Positions 252 to 15,829 of a stretch of DNA of 20,170 nucleotides are shown piece after piece. This stretch comes from a virus: positions 1-20,170 of the IMG/VR virus record IMGVR_UViG_3300046804_005139. The stretch is one strand, 5' to 3'. The notes beneath the pieces were generated by a model. That model searched no databases and had not been told where the DNA came from. It was given only the letters and a program-made list of their open reading frames with translations. The number at the start of each line of letters is the position of its first letter. Position 1 is the first letter of the stretch. A program made the position numbers and the translations under genes.

Positions 252-1181
252 TTACTCGTCGTCGAACTTCGACAGACGTGCGTCCACTTCATCATCCTCA
301 TCATCATCATCGGACACAGAGGGAGGCGTCCACGGACGAGCCGCAGCAGAGGGAGCCGGCGCAGGATCTTCGGTGCGACCCAACGACCGACGCGGAGCAG
401 GAGTCACATCTCCCGCATCATGCGGCGTGAGATATGCCGCCGTATCGAAACCCATCACGCGATCAAGTTTCTTCTTGAGTTCGTCGTAGGACTTAAACTT
501 GTCCGGCGACACAATCTCGGTGAGCGACCGCAGACCATTCAAGGCCTGAAGAATCGCCTTCTCGTCACCCTTCAGCAGCGGCGACGGAGACTCAAACACC
601 GAGTCATCATAGTTAGGGAATCCCGCCTGCTTCTTCTGACGCAGACGGAAGTTGGCCCCTTCAAGGACATGGAAGGGATCGAACGGCGTATCCTGCTCGT
701 ATTCCGGTTCGATGGCCTTCTTAATCTTCTCGAAAATCTTCTTGCCATAGCGGAACAGGAACACCTTCCCTTCGTTCTCGGGATTGCCCTTGTCCTGAAT
801 GACGTAGATATTGGAGACATAGGTCTGCTTCCGCGACTGCTTGCGCACCTGATCACGGAGCGTTTCGTCCTTTGTGCCCCACAGACGACTATTGTATTCT
901 CCGAGTGGGTCATTCTCACCGAGCGTGGTGCGGCTCAGTTCGATATACCAGCCATTCGGACCTTCGAAGGCGTGACGATAGAACGTCACAAACGGCAGTG
1001 ACTCAGGGGGAGGCGCGGGCAGAAAACGAATAATCGCACTACCATTGCCTGCTTTGTCAACCGTAGGCTTCCAATACCCTTCATCGGAATTAGAATTTTC
1101 ACCAGAGGTGGTTTTTACGGCCTGCCGCAATTTATCAAGTGAGGTGGTTTTAAGAAGCGAGTGAAACTGAGAGGGAGACAT
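252..1181 (-). CDS. 32: gp32-like single-stranded DNA-binding protein
   Basis: T4 gp32 family: coats single-stranded DNA during replication, recombination and repair and recruits replisome partners. The 309 residues keep the family layout. There is a basic N-terminal segment, then the core with GNGSAIIRFLP (about 45-55), HAFEGPNGWYIE (70-81), NPENEGKVF (133-141) and WEGANF-like LEGANF. The tail ends in an acidic run (DDDDEDDEVD) and FDDE, the usual protein-interaction tail. T4 gp32 binds zinc through one His and three Cys. H70 is kept, but S83, L93 and Y96 stand where the cysteines should be, and the whole protein has no Cys. Cyanophage gp32 proteins share this loss as far as I recall. The start has AAGGA 6-7 nt upstream. 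It has its own promoter (TTGCAA-17-TATACT) and a repeated leader. Confidence 0.95.
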   Translation of the reverse strand: MSPSQFHSLLKTTSLDKLRQAVKTTSGENSNSDEGYWKPTVDKAGNGSAIIRFLPAPPPESLPFVTFYRHAFEGPNGWYIELSRTTLGENDPLGEYNSRLWGTKDETLRDQVRKQSRKQTYVSNIYVIQDKGNPENEGKVFLFRYGKKIFEKIKKAIEPEYEQDTPFDPFHVLEGANFRLRQKKQAGFPNYDDSVFESPSPLLKGDEKAILQALNGLRSLTEIVSPDKFKSYDELKKKLDRVMGFDTAAYLTPHDAGDVTPAPRRSLGRTEDPAPAPSAAARPWTPPSVSDDDDEDDEVDARLSKFDDE

Positions 1182-1235: not shown

Positions 1236-1264
1236 AGTATATCCTACCCGAGTTTATCTTGCAA
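1236..1264 (-). promoter_or_regulatory. Sigma70-like promoter for gp32
   Basis: On the minus strand TTGCAA (1264-1259) and TATACT (1241-1236) are separated by 17 nt. This is the only -10 box of its series with a well-placed -35. It lies between the stop of gp33 and gp32 and would give a leader of about 45-50 nt. Confidence 0.65.
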
Positions 1265-1525
1265 GCAGGAATTATCTTTCAGGAGTTTTTTGCCTGACAT
1301 TTCTTCCATTAACGCTAACTTCAATTTAGGTGTGAGCAGACTCTTCACCGATTCATATTCACGATCATAATGTTCACACAACTCAATAATGGCATCAAAA
1401 TGCGTCAATTGGTACCGACGCACCAATGTTTGTACCACACGGGTGAATTCTTGGGGCGTCGGTACCGTACCGAGTTGCTCATCGCCACGTTGAAACATCT
1501 TGCCATAACCAGATACATTCATCAT
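1244..1525 (-). CDS. 33: gp33-like late-transcription coactivator
   Basis: About 93 residues from the ATG-ATG pair at 1525. The body TPQEFTRVVQTLVRRYQLTH, followed by DAIIELCEHYDREYESVKSL and LTPKLKLALMEEMS, matches the pattern of the phage late-transcription coactivator family (gp33). These small proteins link the sliding clamp and the late sigma to host RNA polymerase at TATAAATA promoters; the T4 role is established, the transfer here is by resemblance. Its place beside gp32 also fits T4-like phages. A GTG start at 1549 is possible in frame, but neither start has a good ribosome binding site. An extended -10 box ends 12 nt before the ATG, so the mRNA would have a very short leader. Confidence 0.7.
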   Translation of the reverse strand: MMNVSGYGKMFQRGDEQLGTVPTPQEFTRVVQTLVRRYQLTHFDAIIELCEHYDREYESVKSLLTPKLKLALMEEMSGKKLLKDNSCLQDKLG

Positions 1526-1537
1526 CGCTGCACCATT

Positions 1538-1546
1538 AGTATACCA
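1538..1546 (-). promoter_or_regulatory. Extended -10 promoter, TGGTATACT, for gp33
   Basis: Minus-strand TGGTATACTA lies in the gap between the endolysin stop and the gp33 ATG, 12 nt before that ATG. No convincing -35 is present. It belongs to the recurring TGnTATACTA series. Confidence 0.55.
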
Positions 1547-1548
1547 CA

Positions 1549-2103
1549 CTATCCGCGATAAAATTTATGTTGTCCAATCGTGACCACATATTCCAACGTC
1601 TTTGACCATGCCGGTTTAATATCCGTTCGATGAAAATGTGTAACAGGATACTCTTCTTCCAGTTCGGCACGTTCTTGTAAAAAGAGTGTGGCCAATTTTA
1701 CATACTGAGTCGGCGGGCGACGCATCCAATTCGAACGGTGTAACGTCCACGAGTACTGATAGGGTTGATAGACAACGCCACAGATAGACGAGGAATATCC
1801 AGGCAAACCGACCCGATTAAAGACGGTGGCGGCCACGGCTTGCATTCCCTCAAAAGATTCTGTGCCGGCTTCAAAAAATATAACTTGTGCCAAACATAGA
1901 GTTGCGTTCGATGGGCGCACGACCCGACGACGAGCCATCGGACTGGGTTGAACATGCGGCGGTCCACTAAGTGTCGCCGCAACCGACAGAACCGAAGGTA
2001 GCGGCGTGGGCGGCGTCACCAGCGACGGGGCTGACATAAACGCAATGAGTATCATCCACACAGCGAATACGCGACTCACCCATTCACGAGCGGTTTGAAG
2101 CAT
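1549..2103 (-). CDS. SleB-type cell wall hydrolase (endolysin)
   Basis: 184 residues. A hydrophobic N-terminal segment (about 8-25, VSRVFAVWMILIAFMSA) acts as a signal peptide or signal anchor. A Pro-rich linker follows, then a SleB/CwlJ hydrolase domain from about residue 65. The domain shows LAQVIFFEAGTESFEG with its likely catalytic Glu (about 78), VAATVFNRV, and a late THFHRT segment ending in GQHKFYRG. This family cleaves peptidoglycan. Export through the host Sec system would make it a SAR-type or secreted endolysin. The start at 2103 is chosen for AAGGAG 6 nt upstream; a longer reading from 2139 has none. The stop lies just ahead of the gp33 promoter. A 31-bp repeat lies about 48 nt upstream of the start. 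Confidence 0.85.
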   Translation of the reverse strand: MLQTAREWVSRVFAVWMILIAFMSAPSLVTPPTPLPSVLSVAATLSGPPHVQPSPMARRRVVRPSNATLCLAQVIFFEAGTESFEGMQAVAATVFNRVGLPGYSSSICGVVYQPYQYSWTLHRSNWMRRPPTQYVKLATLFLQERAELEEEYPVTHFHRTDIKPAWSKTLEYVVTIGQHKFYRG

Positions 2104-2192: not shown

Positions 2193-2477
2193 TTACGGAC
2201 GCGGCGGATAGACGCCGTAGACGCAGATACACTTGCGAGGTTTACCCTGACTGAGTGAGACATTAAACGGAATTGGTTGACCCGACGCATCGCGCTCGCG
2301 GAGATCCGGTACCGCGAAATTCGTCTGACCGTTCCCGCCATAATACGTGCTAATCAAACTATACAATGCCTGATACTGCGCAATAGGCAGCACAGACCCA
2401 TCGCAATCATGCCAATATTCTGGCGCAAAATTTCCCGCGAATGTACCAATCTCTCCAATAAACGGATCCACACCCAT
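2193..2477 (-). CDS. Miniature tail-collar (microcystin-dependent-protein-like) protein
   Basis: 94 residues from an ATG with GGAGG 5 nt upstream. It opens as MGVDPFIGEIGTFAGNFAPE, followed by HDCDGSVLPIAQYQALYSL and YYGGNGQTNFAVPDLR, the signature of the phage Tail Collar/MdpB family found in tail-fibre tips and related surface proteins. Full-length relatives are usually 170-200 residues. Here the long middle part is missing, and the sequence goes almost directly to the family's C-terminal motif (CICVYGVYPPRP, compare the usual IALQGIFPSR). It looks like a compact but intact version rather than a truncation, since both ends are kept. It sits between the tmRNA and the endolysin, with a 31-bp repeat on each side. 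Confidence 0.8.
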   Translation of the reverse strand: MGVDPFIGEIGTFAGNFAPEYWHDCDGSVLPIAQYQALYSLISTYYGGNGQTNFAVPDLRERDASGQPIPFNVSLSQGKPRKCICVYGVYPPRP

Positions 2478-2497
2478 TGTTACCTCCAATAAAAAAT

Positions 2498-2528
2498 GCC
2501 GGTTAATATCAGCAGAGCCGGCGTGCTG
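2498..2528 (-). repeat. 31-bp direct repeat, copy B, terminator-like
   Basis: Matches copy A at 27 of 31 positions, the four differing bases being contiguous. On the minus strand the GCCGG with CCGGC hairpin is followed by ATTTTTTATTG, so this copy looks like an intrinsic terminator for the tmRNA coding piece. It is followed directly by the ribosome binding site of the collar gene. Confidence 0.65.
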
Positions 2529-2530
2529 GT

Positions 2531-2905
2531 GACGAGCGTTTCCCCTCCTCACAACGAGGCGTGCTTTCTGTTGCCCGGTACGACGCCAATACCGCGTACG
2601 GTATTCAATAGGAACCCGTACAAGTGCTGCTAGGCAGCCATTGCGTAACTGTAGTTGTCAGTTACTGGTGTCTCTGTTTAACGTCAGCGACTTGACGACT
2701 GTCTCCATGTCGTTCTGCCGATACCCCGTCGAAGCCTTGTCGCCCCCATCAGAAACAATCATCTGGCGAAACCCATGATAATAAAGATTCACCGCTGCGA
2801 GAATACCCCAACAAATTCCGAATGTAATCATGATTGCTTCTGGTGGAGGCGGCGGGAGTCGAACCCGCGTCCGCGATATCCGTTCAACACTTCATCGACA
2901 ATATC
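2531..2905 (-). ncRNA. ssrA: Circularly permuted (two-piece) tmRNA
   Basis: tmRNA frees stalled ribosomes and tags the nascent peptide for proteolysis. The 3' part comes first on the minus strand (2905-2841). It has the T arm (GGACGCGGGTTCGACTCCCG) and the acceptor 3' strand CGCCTCC, then A and an encoded CCA. A 93-nt spacer (2840-2748) follows. Next is the 5' end GGGGGCGACAAGGCTTCGAC (2747 onward); GGGGGCG pairs with CGCCTCC over 7 bp including one G-U. The spacer ends continue this helix: CAGAAGCAATCAT (2842-2830) pairs with ATGATTGTTTCTG (2762-2750). The P2 strands GTATC and GATAT also pair. The tag frame ends at TAG 2630-2632 and reads TDNYSYAMAA if the resume codon is ACT at 2660-2662, as CAGTA before it suggests. 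The stop lies in a GCTGC/GCAGC hairpin. Outer ends are approximate. Confidence 0.9.
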
Positions 2906-2907
2906 AA

Positions 2908-2914
2908 TATTTAG
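2908..2914 (-). promoter_or_regulatory. Late-type box CTAAATA before the tmRNA
   Basis: Minus-strand CTAAATA overlaps the TAA stop of the gene at 2911-3105 and lies directly before the first tmRNA piece. Transcription starting 5-7 nt downstream would begin near 2902, a sensible 5' end for the acceptor piece. One of the recurring TAAATA series. Confidence 0.4.
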
Positions 2915-3105
2915 GCAAAACCTTCGTCTCTTGGGTCATCATGCGCAATCAGATGATCCCCATTTGATACATGTAAGACCGACGCAATTTTTGCCACCGC
3001 ATCACGAATCGCTTGGTCGTTCATCGCAATATTAGCATAGTAAATCTTGGTAATCATGTCATCGCACCACTGGTAGTACTCTTCGACATTCTTAAATTTT
3101 GGCAT
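2911..3105 (-). CDS. Hypothetical small protein, 64 residues
   Basis: No family recognised. The sequence (starting MPKFKNVEEYYQWCDDMITK) is predicted to be mostly helical, soluble and mildly acidic. It starts a few bases after the nuclease gene stop; the end of that gene (TTAGGATAA) supplies the ribosome binding site, so translation is probably coupled. Codon use resembles the neighbours. The permuted tmRNA begins right after its stop. Confidence 0.7.
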   Translation of the reverse strand: MPKFKNVEEYYQWCDDMITKIYYANIAMNDQAIRDAVAKIASVLHVSNGDHLIAHDDPRDEGFA

Positions 3106-3109
3106 ATGC

Positions 3110-3862
3110 TTATCCTAACACGGTATTTACTTGTTGCGCGAACATATCAACACGAGTTCGAAGGGATTCGCGCCACTGCGCGACTTCCGTTTCTTGCCAC
3201 AAAATACGATCCGGCAACAACTGCGCAATGACCACCGTATCAATCGGTCCTCGACCCCAATGCTCGGTCAGTGCGTCGGCATAAAACGTACCCTGTATCG
3301 CATAATTATCCAATCGATTACCGCTCTTACGTTTTTTGCCAGTTTTGAAATCCAAAATCGCATGGCGCCCATCCTGTAATTCTACCGCCATGTCCATGCG
3401 TCCCGCAATTCCATACGCCGTCGAGGCCACACGAGTTTCTGAGGCAACCACTGCGCGTAACTGCGTATTCAACACGGTCGCAATATGCGCACCATAGGCG
3501 ACATCTTCGGGTTCTTCAAACAGCGACCACCCAATCTGCTGTCGTGTCACAAAATATTCGCAAAATTTATGCCACCGAGTGCCCCGCGAGGCCGCTTTCT
3601 CTGTGATTGAGGTAGCCGCGGCATGCCCAACTCGCTGTCGCCATTGCTGAAGCGATTTTCGGCCCTCGTCATCCGTGGCGGAAATCAAATTAGAAATCGA
3701 CGGAAACAATTGCCCGTCGTACAGATACCATCGTTTGCCATCGTGTAACGTTTCAGTAATTGGCAATGAAAGCGTCAGTGGTGTATACGTAATGGTACAT
3801 GCCGGCACACCGTGCGCGGTATACGACGTAATGGGAAACTGTTGCTCATTCCACACAGACAT
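3110..3862 (-). CDS. PD-(D/E)XK exonuclease, RecB/Cas4-like
   Basis: 250 residues. The PD-(D/E)XK nuclease core is visible. RGTRWHKFCE (93-102) matches the GTxxHxxxE helix, GIAGRMDMAV (151-160) carries the metal-binding Asp157, and ILDFKTGKKRK (169-179) carries Asp171 and Lys173 of the DxK signature. The preceding FPSISNLISAT and LQQWRQRVG segments are typical of the exonuclease version common in T4-like marine phages. It probably acts in DNA recombination, end processing or host DNA breakdown. No ribosome binding site precedes the ATG. Instead TGGTATACT ends 7 nt before it, so the mRNA is predicted to be leaderless. It is followed by a coupled small gene. Confidence 0.85.
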   Translation of the reverse strand: MSVWNEQQFPITSYTAHGVPACTITYTPLTLSLPITETLHDGKRWYLYDGQLFPSISNLISATDDEGRKSLQQWRQRVGHAAATSITEKAASRGTRWHKFCEYFVTRQQIGWSLFEEPEDVAYGAHIATVLNTQLRAVVASETRVASTAYGIAGRMDMAVELQDGRHAILDFKTGKKRKSGNRLDNYAIQGTFYADALTEHWGRGPIDTVVIAQLLPDRILWQETEVAQWRESLRTRVDMFAQQVNTVLG

Positions 3863-6048: not shown

Positions 6049-6507
6049 TTACTCGAAGGATTTCATGTGCGACCGAATCTTCCATGCCCACTTGTCGTGC
6101 GCGAAGATGAGGTCTTGCATTTTGTTTTCGGTGCCGGTATCGCCAGCCGCCGCGGCCGCATCCTTTACCTTGTGTAATGACCCGAGCACTACCGTATTTG
6201 CTTGGAGCAGGTCTGCGAGAAGGGGCTTGGGGTCACCGTTTGTAAATACGGTGCTGTCAATCTGACTCAGTTCTACCACCGCTTGAATGGAGTTTGGTGC
6301 GTAGTAGCGATGGAAGCGCATAATTTCCGCGACCAAATCCGCTGAATCAAATACGGCTTCGTAGAGTTCACCAAAGAAATCGTGGAGCGGTCCAAAAAAT
6401 GGGCCTTCGACATTCCAATGAGCACTATGAGCACGAAAATACATGCCATAGACATTTCCAAGCAATTCTCGTAAGGCACCAACTAACACGGTGGTTTCAG
6501 CGGCCAT
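6049..6507 (-). CDS. Dps/ferritin-like protein (DUF5856-like)
   Basis: 152 residues, four-helix ferritin-like fold expected. AHSAHWNVEGPFFGPLHDFF (26-45) is the Dps signature. H30, D57 and E61 reproduce exactly the spacing of the E. coli Dps ferroxidase ligands H51, D78 and E82, and H42 matches H63; the D67 position is Gly46 with Glu47 next to it. Dps proteins store iron and protect DNA from peroxide. Phage members of this group are common in cyanophage-like T4 relatives. GGAGAG lies 6 nt before the start, and a perfect T4 late box, TATAAATA, lies 16 nt before it. The gene forms a pair with the nucleotidyltransferase and follows the Hsp20 terminator. Confidence 0.85.
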   Translation of the reverse strand: MAAETTVLVGALRELLGNVYGMYFRAHSAHWNVEGPFFGPLHDFFGELYEAVFDSADLVAEIMRFHRYYAPNSIQAVVELSQIDSTVFTNGDPKPLLADLLQANTVVLGSLHKVKDAAAAAGDTGTENKMQDLIFAHDKWAWKIRSHMKSFE

Positions 6508-6572: not shown

Positions 6573-7055
6573 CTATTCCGTCAATGTGGGGATAGTTGAC
6601 TGGATAGTAATCAGACGCTTCTTTTCCTTCTCTGGAATCACATTTTCCACGATAATCGTCAGAATACCATCTTCCAACGCCGCATCACGCACTTCGGCGG
6701 TTTCCACGAGCGGAATCCGCTTTTCAAACGATCGCAAGGCCAGACCCCGATAGAGGTAGCTGCTGGTCTCTTCCGTTGCAGGGCGTGCGCCCTTCACGGT
6801 GAGCACCTGCTTCTCCACCGAGATTTCCAAGTCCGAGGACTTGAATCCCGCCACCGCGATATCCAAGGCATAGAGGTTGTCCTCCACCTTGCGAATATTG
6901 TGCGGGGGATAGCTGGTTTGCGTAGAACTCACCTGCTGAAGTTGCGATCGAATATCGTCGAAGAGACGATCGAATCCGACCGTGTATTGCGTGAGTTCGG
7001 TGGGGTAGGGGTCTTGCAGGGCATTAAAGAACGAACGGAGAGCGAGTTGTGTCAT
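6573..7055 (-). CDS. Small heat-shock protein, Hsp20/IbpA family
   Basis: 160 residues. An N-terminal arm (MTQLALRSFFNALQDPYPTE, then FDRLFDD) is followed by an alpha-crystallin domain from about residue 50. The domain includes YALDIAVAGFKSSDLEISV, LTVKGARPA and LALRSFEKRIPL, and the signature AALEDGILTI near its end, followed by a short C-terminal tail with the IxI-like ITIQSTI. Such proteins hold unfolding proteins in an ATP-independent way; T4-like phages often carry one. The start at 7055 is chosen for AAGGAGGA 6 nt upstream; a longer frame to 7103 is not needed. The leader folds into hairpins that could control access to the ribosome binding site. Both a TGATATACT and a TATAAATA box lie upstream. 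Confidence 0.92.
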   Translation of the reverse strand: MTQLALRSFFNALQDPYPTELTQYTVGFDRLFDDIRSQLQQVSSTQTSYPPHNIRKVEDNLYALDIAVAGFKSSDLEISVEKQVLTVKGARPATEETSSYLYRGLALRSFEKRIPLVETAEVRDAALEDGILTIIVENVIPEKEKKRLITIQSTIPTLTE

Positions 7056-7056
7056 A

Positions 7057-7113
7057 GTAGTCCTCCTTGAGCGACTATAATTCGCCGCAATCCCCGAAGG
7101 CAATTGCGACTAC
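7057..7113 (-). promoter_or_regulatory. hsp20 leader structure, possible RNA thermometer
   Basis: On the minus strand GTAGTC (7113-7108) can pair with GACTAC (7062-7057), which adjoins the ribosome binding site. A nearer TAGTC (7077-7073) can pair with GACTA and put AAGGAG in the loop. Between them is a CGCAAT/ATTGCG hairpin with a UUCG loop. hsp20 genes in many bacteria are controlled by leader thermometers; this one is a prediction. Confidence 0.35.
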
Positions 7114-14464: not shown

Positions 14465-15829
14465 TTACTGCTGCTGTGTTGCGGTCGGGGTATGTTTGAC
14501 GACCCACTCCGTATATTCTGCGTCGGTGAGATAGACGACGTTCATCCACGCATGGGCCATCTCGTCAACCGTACGGTCCCCGTAGCCGACCCACTGCTCA
14601 GGGTCAGGGTTCGCCTTGTTGGCTTTGGTGTTGTCATACCACGCGGTCACATGAATGATGGTGCCCTTGGGAAACGCCGGTGCCGCATCATCCGCATAGA
14701 TGTAGTTCGTCATCCAGTTGAAGTTGAAATCCTTCACATATGAAATAATCTGCGTCCGACCATTAGGTAGAATCGCTTCGACCTGCATCGCTTTGCCGCG
14801 CAGATGGAAGTGCGGCTGGAAGTTCGTGATGATGGTGTTCTCACGCAGGACGGTGAACCCTTCCGTATGTGAGATAGAGTTCGGGGGAATGTCGAGTCCT
14901 TCGGTGCCGTTCTTCAATCCCGTAAATGCGACAAGATAGGAACGCTTCGTGGGTTCCTGTCCCTTCGGATAGAACCAAAGTCCAAGTTCGCTACCGCCCG
15001 TGATTTCTTCACCAACAGCATGAATATGTTGATCCCATGAAATTTTTTCGCCGGGGAGTACAAGTTTGCCTGTTCCTTCAAGGTACCGGTCATACCCCTT
15101 CCCGATAGCCCACTCCATGAGTTGTGGGCGTCGATTCGCTAATTCGGCGGCCAGTTGTGACGCATTCCCTGATACAGATGCCGCAGGACGACCACCACCG
15201 ATACCAGTATTCACTGCCGACACATTTTCGGGATTGAGAATCTGATACGCAATTGAATGATGAAGAATTTTTCGTGTCTGGATATTGGTGGGACGAATCT
15301 CGACCATGCGCACCCATCGCGGTTCGGTCACAGGGATATCACTGACGGGACGCCACCATTCATCTTGATGCACTGCCGGCATAGTTTGTTCCGGTGCTTT
15401 GACAATGAGATCCGGCGGGCCGTATCCGTCGCGTTCTCCTTGCCAAAACAACGACGTGGCAATTGGCTTTGGAACAAACTTAGTCTTGTCGCCTTGGAGC
15501 GCACCACCATCCACCCATCGCGCAATCAAATCAATCTGCTCGTCGGTCAGGGACATGTCATTCTTGAATTTAGTCACGCCCACACTACGTTCAATATGCC
15601 ACGGGGGCATTTGTCGTGTTTGAACGCGCTGCTTAATTGACCGCGCCCACGGACGCGCCTCCGCATAGGTCGCAAGAGAAAACGGACCGATACTACCCGG
15701 CTCATGACAATTTTGACACTTCGCCTGAAAGATGGGGGCGACATCATTAAACGTGGGTGTCTGTGCCGCCGCCGAAGTAACACTGAATACACAAATGCCG
15801 ATGGCCATGAAGAAATGAGACATCTTCAT
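14465..15829 (-). CDS. Secreted cytochrome c-copper monooxygenase (PHM-like) fusion
   Basis: 454 residues. A signal peptide (1-22, ending SAAA) precedes a cytochrome c domain with the haem motif C38-Q-N-C41-H42 and a candidate axial Met74 in RQMPPW. From about 130 a domain resembles copper type II, ascorbate-dependent monooxygenases (PHM/DBM). H190-H191 (KILHHSIAY) and H268/H270 (QHIHAVGEE) would hold one copper; H340 and H342 (FQPHFHLRGKAM) with M424 (VDEMAHAWM) the other. All ligand groups come in family order. PHM-type enzymes hydroxylate C-H bonds with O2; the haem domain could deliver electrons. Similar fusions are frequent in Acidobacteriota and related phyla. Substrate unknown; action in the periplasm expected. 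GGAGG lies 6 nt before the ATG. In a phage this is a probable auxiliary metabolic gene. Confidence 0.85.
   Translation of the reverse strand: MKMSHFFMAIGICVFSVTSAAAQTPTFNDVAPIFQAKCQNCHEPGSIGPFSLATYAEARPWARSIKQRVQTRQMPPWHIERSVGVTKFKNDMSLTDEQIDLIARWVDGGALQGDKTKFVPKPIATSLFWQGERDGYGPPDLIVKAPEQTMPAVHQDEWWRPVSDIPVTEPRWVRMVEIRPTNIQTRKILHHSIAYQILNPENVSAVNTGIGGGRPAASVSGNASQLAAELANRRPQLMEWAIGKGYDRYLEGTGKLVLPGEKISWDQHIHAVGEEITGGSELGLWFYPKGQEPTKRSYLVAFTGLKNGTEGLDIPPNSISHTEGFTVLRENTIITNFQPHFHLRGKAMQVEAILPNGRTQIISYVKDFNFNWMTNYIYADDAAPAFPKGTIIHVTAWYDNTKANKANPDPEQWVGYGDRTVDEMAHAWMNVVYLTDAEYTEWVVKHTPTATQQQ

Follow-up and report, generated by a model that had tools for sequence, protein, structure and literature searches.

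A permuted tmRNA gene of a T4-like phage with a predicted late promoter and a spacer that varies in length and content among relatives

The question of why phages carry a ribosome-rescue RNA of their own is raised again by a locus in the window analysed here, which is the whole of a 20,170-base fragment of viral DNA (IMG/VR record IMGVR_UViG_3300046804_005139). We consider it very probable that a T4-like phage has here a functional permuted tmRNA (ssrA) gene, and that the gene is expressed late in infection. The gene itself is a further case of the phage permuted tmRNAs that have already been reported. New here are its fixed place among T4-like genes, a late-promoter motif, the covariation of the spacer helix, the absence of SmpB from the viral records searched, the range of spacer lengths, and open reading frames encoded within the spacers of some other viral genes. 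The surprising points are the late promoter, the spacer lengths, and the spacer-encoded peptide and HNH frame.

Identity and tag of the gene

The window carries an intact permuted tmRNA gene on its minus strand, from about 2902 to 2491 (Table 1); the interval given in the initial annotation, 2531-2910, covers most of it. An Rfam covariance search matched the full tmRNA_permuted model (RF04321, positions 1-213) at 2902-2630, minus strand, with 94.5 bits (E 1.6e-17) against a curated cut-off of 47 bits. ARAGORN, an independent detector, agrees and reports a permuted tmRNA (tmRNA*) at 2933-2539, minus strand, with the tag DNYSYAMAA. The acceptor half is therefore encoded ahead of the 5' half, as had been proposed from the letters alone, and the gene has the features of the tmRNA class: an acceptor stem with G3-U70, a T arm, CCA, UUCGAC, and a tag frame with its resume site and stop. 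Two outcomes had been named as contrary to this reading, rejection of both halves by covariance models and a decayed copy accompanied by a standard full-length ssrA elsewhere in the genome. The complete RF04321 model was matched instead, and a decayed copy finds no support in the window, where helices, CCA, tag and stop are all intact; a standard ssrA may yet lie in the rest of the phage genome, of which the 20-kb record is a fragment.

Table 1. Features of the permuted tmRNA gene and its neighbours, in window coordinates
Feature	Position	Strand	Basis
PD-(D/E)XK exonuclease, upstream neighbour	3110..3862	minus	conserved synteny
T4-type late promoter octamer CCTAAATA, predicted	2908..2915	minus	-13 to -6 of predicted RNA start
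Predicted RNA start	2902	minus	first base of RF04321 model
3' acceptor piece, transcribed first	2841..2902	minus	RF04321 alignment, anchored search
T arm	2868-2852	minus	RF04321 alignment, anchored search
Acceptor strand CGCCUCC	2851-2845	minus	RF04321 alignment, anchored search
Encoded ACCA	2844-2841	minus	RF04321 alignment, anchored search
Spacer of 93 nt, excision predicted	2748..2840	minus	anchored search, shuffles, covariation
Spacer-end helix	2840-2830 with 2762-2752	minus	two-sided changes at 11/11 pairs
Conserved UGAU leader	2751-2748	minus	comparison of phage genes
5' coding piece, through tag region and 3' hairpin to terminator	2491..2747	minus	covariance search; arm pairing in relatives
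Acceptor strand GGGGGCG	2747-2741	minus	RF04321 alignment
Conserved UUCGAC	2733-2728	minus	RF04321 alignment
Tag frame of nine codons plus stop, GAC...GCC TAG (DNYSYAMAA*)	2630..2659	minus	ARAGORN
Hairpin GCUGC-CUA-GCAGC with stop codon	2626..2638	minus	sequence reading; compensated in L003
ACAGAA in 3' hairpin	2571-2566	minus	covariance search; arm pairing in relatives
Likely intrinsic terminator, GCCGG...CCGGC then TTTTTT	2491..2522	minus	sequence reading
gp33 late-transcription coactivator, downstream neighbour	1244..1549	minus	Pfam Trans_coact, 40.6 bits
gp32 single-strand DNA-binding protein, downstream neighbour	252..1181	minus	Pfam gp32, 145 bits

The acceptor strands GGGGGCG and CGCCUCC pair at 7/7 positions, as first described, and their third pair is the G-U (G3-U70) that serves as the alanine identity element of alanine tRNA and tmRNA. 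The whole RNA folds better than its shuffles (z -3.07), and in relatives the arms of the 3' hairpin pair better with their own partners than with swapped ones. A terminator scan placed a site at 2514-2497, with one found against 0.5 expected, so that the scan is weak alone. The open reading frame listed at 2193-2552, minus strand, begins within the tmRNA 3' region (GTG at 2552); this tail-collar gene probably starts instead at an ATG near 2478, behind GGAGG.

The tag had been read as TDNYSYAMAA. The DNYSYAMAA frame and its stop stand, and the leading T falls away: in E. coli, UA fixes the tmRNA resume codon, and because the conserved UA sits at -5/-4 (UAACU followed by GAC) the resume codon is most likely GAC, giving Ala plus DNYSYAMAA, which is also the ARAGORN reading. 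The stop codon does lie within a hairpin. In the relative L003 this hairpin has a swapped pair (GCAGC/GCUGC) and the tag alanine is unchanged. At the homologous place, the closest relatives encode DQYQFAMAA (L002 and L003, with synonymous changes in tag codons and the C-terminal AMAA kept) or DNYSALPLAA (L005).

The likeness to the Chlorobium tag ending noted initially holds as a similarity of sequence: one-piece tmRNAs carry the pattern [DN]Y[ST]YAMAA, and most of those that do are from Bacteroidota/Chlorobi/Rhodothermales genomes. Tags ending in YSYAMAA are carried by one-piece tmRNAs of Chlorobiales, Rhodothermales, Hymenobacter and others, and a MAG labelled Spirochaetes (L269) has exactly DNYSYAMAA. 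All 101 of the 101 ARAGORN tmRNAs among these loci, which were chosen by tag, are one-piece, whereas the window gene is permuted. The tag pattern, itself the search criterion, hints at a possible host of FCB type (Bacteroidota/Chlorobi/Rhodothermales). A nucleotide search of the window against phage isolates for a host matched the T-arm stretch only, and the window gp32 is less than 60% identical to that of any phage isolate.

Gene order, tRNA-like domain and spacer are shared with the two-piece tmRNAs of Alphaproteobacteria (RF01849), Betaproteobacteria (RF01850) and Cyanobacteria (RF01851), which have been merged as RF04321, and the 3' GGCAACAGAA is common to the window and the alpha consensus. 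The window gene differs from these bacterial forms in its short tag of one-piece type and in its scores with the separate permuted models that the initial annotation had proposed as a check: the alpha_tmRNA score is borderline (50.2 bits, cut-off 50), with many non-standard pairs in the model helices, and the beta_tmRNA score is below its threshold (55.8 bits, cut-off 84). These low scores suggest that the mRNA-like part of the gene is divergent.

The view that a permuted copy carried by a T4-like phage would be unusual finds no support. Buchholz et al. (2022, PMC9004378) describe a two-piece tmRNA in phage Melnitz and class as two-piece 53 of the 133 unique structures that they list for phage tmRNAs, and a tmRNA database of 2025 includes 79 phage tmRNAs (PMC11915505). 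Besides many viral contigs, we found permuted genes, mostly unannotated as tmRNA, in the isolates Bordetella PHB04, Xanthomonas XacN1 and Rb1, Alcaligenes QDWS595 and Tunturiibacter Tunturi_4, and the Stenotrophomonas phage Marzo has one that is annotated. Xanthomonas and Stenotrophomonas bacteria have a one-piece tmRNA and their phages a permuted one, so the form of the tmRNA does not simply follow the host. In the acidobacterium phage Tunturi_4 (L449, 42372-45412), the unannotated permuted tmRNA lies directly downstream of an annotated release-factor gene with an RF-1 domain, possibly setting two ribosome-rescue functions side by side.

Gene neighbourhood, predicted late promoter and likely function

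Homologues of gp32 and gp33 near the tmRNA gene bear out the initial assignment of the window to a T4-like phage. Among 80 IMG/VR records drawn by gp32 and searched for RF04321, 17 gave a match, 16 of them over the cut-off. Wherever neighbours are visible in T4-like contigs, a single strand carries, in this order, exonuclease - tmRNA - gp33 - gp32. The same order is found in the isolate Melnitz, whose ssrA (MZ577097) lies in a series of PD-(D/E)XK nuclease - tmRNA - gp33 - helicase loader - gp32. Melnitz further resembles the window in a spacer with paired ends and a UGAU leader, and in a late-promoter octamer at the same distance. It differs in a high alpha_tmRNA score (106.7 bits) and in a separate glutamine riboswitch downstream, where the window has no Rfam riboswitch match; the window in turn has the DNYSYAMAA tag, and collar and endolysin genes ahead of gp33. 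The Melnitz riboswitch (L453:1399-1447), which was reported in the ssrA 3' domain, lies just past the end of the tmRNA model, and the two look like separate elements.

Because this synteny is conserved in divergent carriers, the fixed gene place points to a probable long residence in phages over recent capture. A captured or decaying host ssrA, functionless in the phage and left over, for example, from recombination at an ssrA site, would be consistent with the acquisition of ssrA fragments by phages, for which a passage of PMC9004378 cites earlier work, and with the decaying copy in the relative L004, where an acceptor half and terminator (L004:4729-4817) are the sole tmRNA remains. For the window we regard it as very unlikely, given parts that are intact and covarying, a gene position shared across divergent phages, and a tag conserved with synonymous change. 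The motif CACCAG occurs twice in the window (2845-2840 and 2531-2526), and recombination between such repeats would yield the L004 form, which may also be an assembly error. The gene of L002 is cut by the contig end, and that of L197 is also cut. Most gp32-bearing contigs are without a match, though many are fragments, and L004 is reduced; the tmRNA gene is thus dispensable, a point that counts against our reading. Taken together, the synonymous tag changes, the kept AMAA, the hairpin swap in L003 and the losses among relatives suggest a maintained gene that is sometimes lost.

The T4 late promoter is TATAAATA (PMC5587285). The octamer ahead of the window gene departs from it at two bases, the first two, and both octamer and distance to the RNA start are like those of T4 late promoters; unlike these, it stands before an RNA gene. 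The core TA[AT]ATA begins at -16 to -9 in 17 of 20 loci, Melnitz included, against 0.35 expected from shuffles and a maximum of 5 in 200,000 simulations. As these loci are related, 17/20 measures conservation and not 17 independent events. Two further loci have the motif at -23 and -26.

For Melnitz, an early promoter upstream of ssrA was reported and early expression postulated (Buchholz et al., 2022, PMC9004378), and its authors proposed that host proteins are tagged early for amino-acid recycling. In Melnitz itself, however, the exact T4 octamer occupies precisely -13 to -6 relative to the predicted RNA start, and the window and its relatives have a motif of the same type. This constant distance argues for late expression and against the early proposal, and we consider early tagging unlikely for the window gene. 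We infer that the window tmRNA is transcribed late with gp33, which is encoded downstream of it.

A search for SmpB (PF01668) gave no match in any of 40 viral records, most of them tmRNA-bearing and many 60-450 kb long, although 10 of the 14 bacterial controls were detected; we thus expect the phage tmRNA to depend on the SmpB of its host. The same absence would suit a tmRNA-like decoy, which competes with the host tmRNA for SmpB, or blocks rescue, without full trans-translation, and a passage of PMC11915505 cites a tag-less tmRNA of phage DS6A that inhibited the endogenous tmRNA in E. coli. A decoy seems quite unlikely here, as the tag frame and its AMAA ending are kept through synonymous changes, which is expected if the tag is translated.

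Late ribosome rescue with host SmpB is the likely function that emerges from these comparisons. Judging from the conserved motif, host RNA polymerase with phage gp33 and gp55 would start late at about 2902 and make a single precursor, in which the spacer ends, as their covariation shows, lengthen the acceptor helix into one long hairpin. By analogy with two-piece tmRNAs, RNase P and host 3'-processing nucleases would excise the 93 nt of the spacer. The products would be an acceptor piece of 62 nt that ends in CCA and a coding piece of roughly 200-250 nt, joined to each other through the acceptor helix and the helices beside it. Host alanyl-tRNA synthetase would charge the molecule via the G3-U70 pair that is present, and with SmpB it would enter stalled ribosomes and add Ala-DNYSYAMAA as a signal for host proteases. 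The benefit would most likely be that ribosomes are kept free late, when nonstop mRNA accumulates. Fixed place and T4-type late promoter thus give a testable claim about timing.

Other genes of the window include a secreted-looking protein of 454 aa (14465-15829, minus strand) with a weak cytochrome c domain match of 26.6 bits, slightly below the cut-off of 27, an unusual cargo for a T4-like phage, and adjoining genes for a Ferritin/Dps-like protein and an Hsp20 chaperone (6049-6507 and 6573-7103, minus strand).

Spacer helix, spacer length and spacer-encoded frames

Anchored search confirmed the 93-nt spacer of the initial annotation. The helix extension of 13 bp described there consists of 11 pairs of true spacer, flush with the CCA, and a remainder in which the CA of CCA pairs with UG. 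An equally long flush stem arises in 155 of 100,000 mononucleotide shuffles of the window spacer. Among 24 non-redundant viral genes whose spacers measure 40 nt or more, the two ends of the same spacer pair over a mean of 9.8 bases; exchanging ends between genes lowers the mean to 4.5, and 0 of 20,000 permutations attain the observed value. In an ungapped alignment of 22 of these genes (L053 and L061, which have no unbroken stem, were left out), two-sided changes occur at every one of the 11 spacer pairs and at three pairs each of the acceptor and the T stem; over the three helices covariation scores 0.545, whereas slid structures do not exceed 0.132, and 96.8% of cells are paired. The spacer helix was no criterion in finding the genes, while the acceptor and T arm partly were. 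The UGAU that precedes the mature 5' end hardly varies, and three of its four positions can pair with ACCA. Together with this leader, the helix supports the initial proposal of a precursor that would be processed by excision.

Across permuted viral tmRNA genes, spacers range from 3 to 489 nt, which together with the conserved helix offers a natural series for the processing of permuted pre-tmRNA. A pattern with spacers of 2-14 nt matched 111 stretches of viral contigs, of which 93 pass acceptor and T-stem checks, leaving 51 when redundancy is removed, with spacers of 3-14 nt; these are counts in viral contigs and carry no claim of phage specificity. The tmRNA signature GGAC precedes the T stem in 40 of the 51, and all 50 records searched (46 of the 51 plus L003, L005, L134 and L174) exceed the Rfam cut-off, with up to 142.8 bits. 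The loci with such mini-spacers are L003 (10 nt), L005 (3 nt), L106, L134, L153, L174 and L337-L443. Some pattern matches were discarded as not tmRNA, or as a tRNA beside a one-piece tmRNA (L407). A spacer of 3-5 nt is too short to form the helix, so processing must differ in these genes.

We lean towards a broader reading, in which the permuted tmRNAs of T4-like phages are a long-resident, late-expressed lineage whose excised spacer serves as a coding compartment: a mini-mRNA for a membrane peptide in many relatives, a homing endonuclease in one, and 3-5 nt elsewhere. If this is true, one transcript would yield both a ribosome-rescue RNA and a membrane peptide. A spacer that doubles as a gene would then be a novel layout, with coding sequence placed inside the portion of a structured RNA that is cut away. 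We found no description of a spacer-encoded peptide or spacer endonuclease in the open-licence literature.

The peptide, of 27-30 aa, is conserved, has a single transmembrane segment, and is encoded in the spacer of 62 viral contigs, 26 of them non-redundant (L454-L511, L053, L056, L061 and L039). A Shine-Dalgarno sequence, AAGGA or TAGGA, directly follows the CCA, and then come ATG, 27-30 codons, and a stop that is either the UGA of the UGAU leader or lies eight bases earlier. The search pattern required the ribosome-binding site and ATG, and neither an open frame nor hydrophobicity. The pN/pS ratio is 0.48 in frame, against 0.94 and 0.95 for the two alternative frames, and the maximal 19-residue hydropathy averages 2.53 for the family, against 1.01 for shuffled open frames. 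Since the ribosome-binding site falls within the strand that pairs with the spacer 3' end, folding or processing may govern whether it is used. The window itself fails to show this peptide: the frame that opens with an ATG at spacer position 10 (MITFGICWGILAAVNLYYHGFRQMIVS...), a place comparable to that in the family, has no clear Shine-Dalgarno sequence, no stop inside the spacer, and a hydropathy of 1.28 against the family mean of 2.53.

The endonuclease is found in L057, whose 489-nt spacer contains a 158-aa open reading frame of HNH type that matches homing endonucleases (3131-3607; PHROG 655, E 7.5e-16). On one side of it lies the acceptor half, at about 3075-3120, and on the other the 5' half, which starts near 3608. 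The acceptor helix and the spacer stem of this gene remain complementary.
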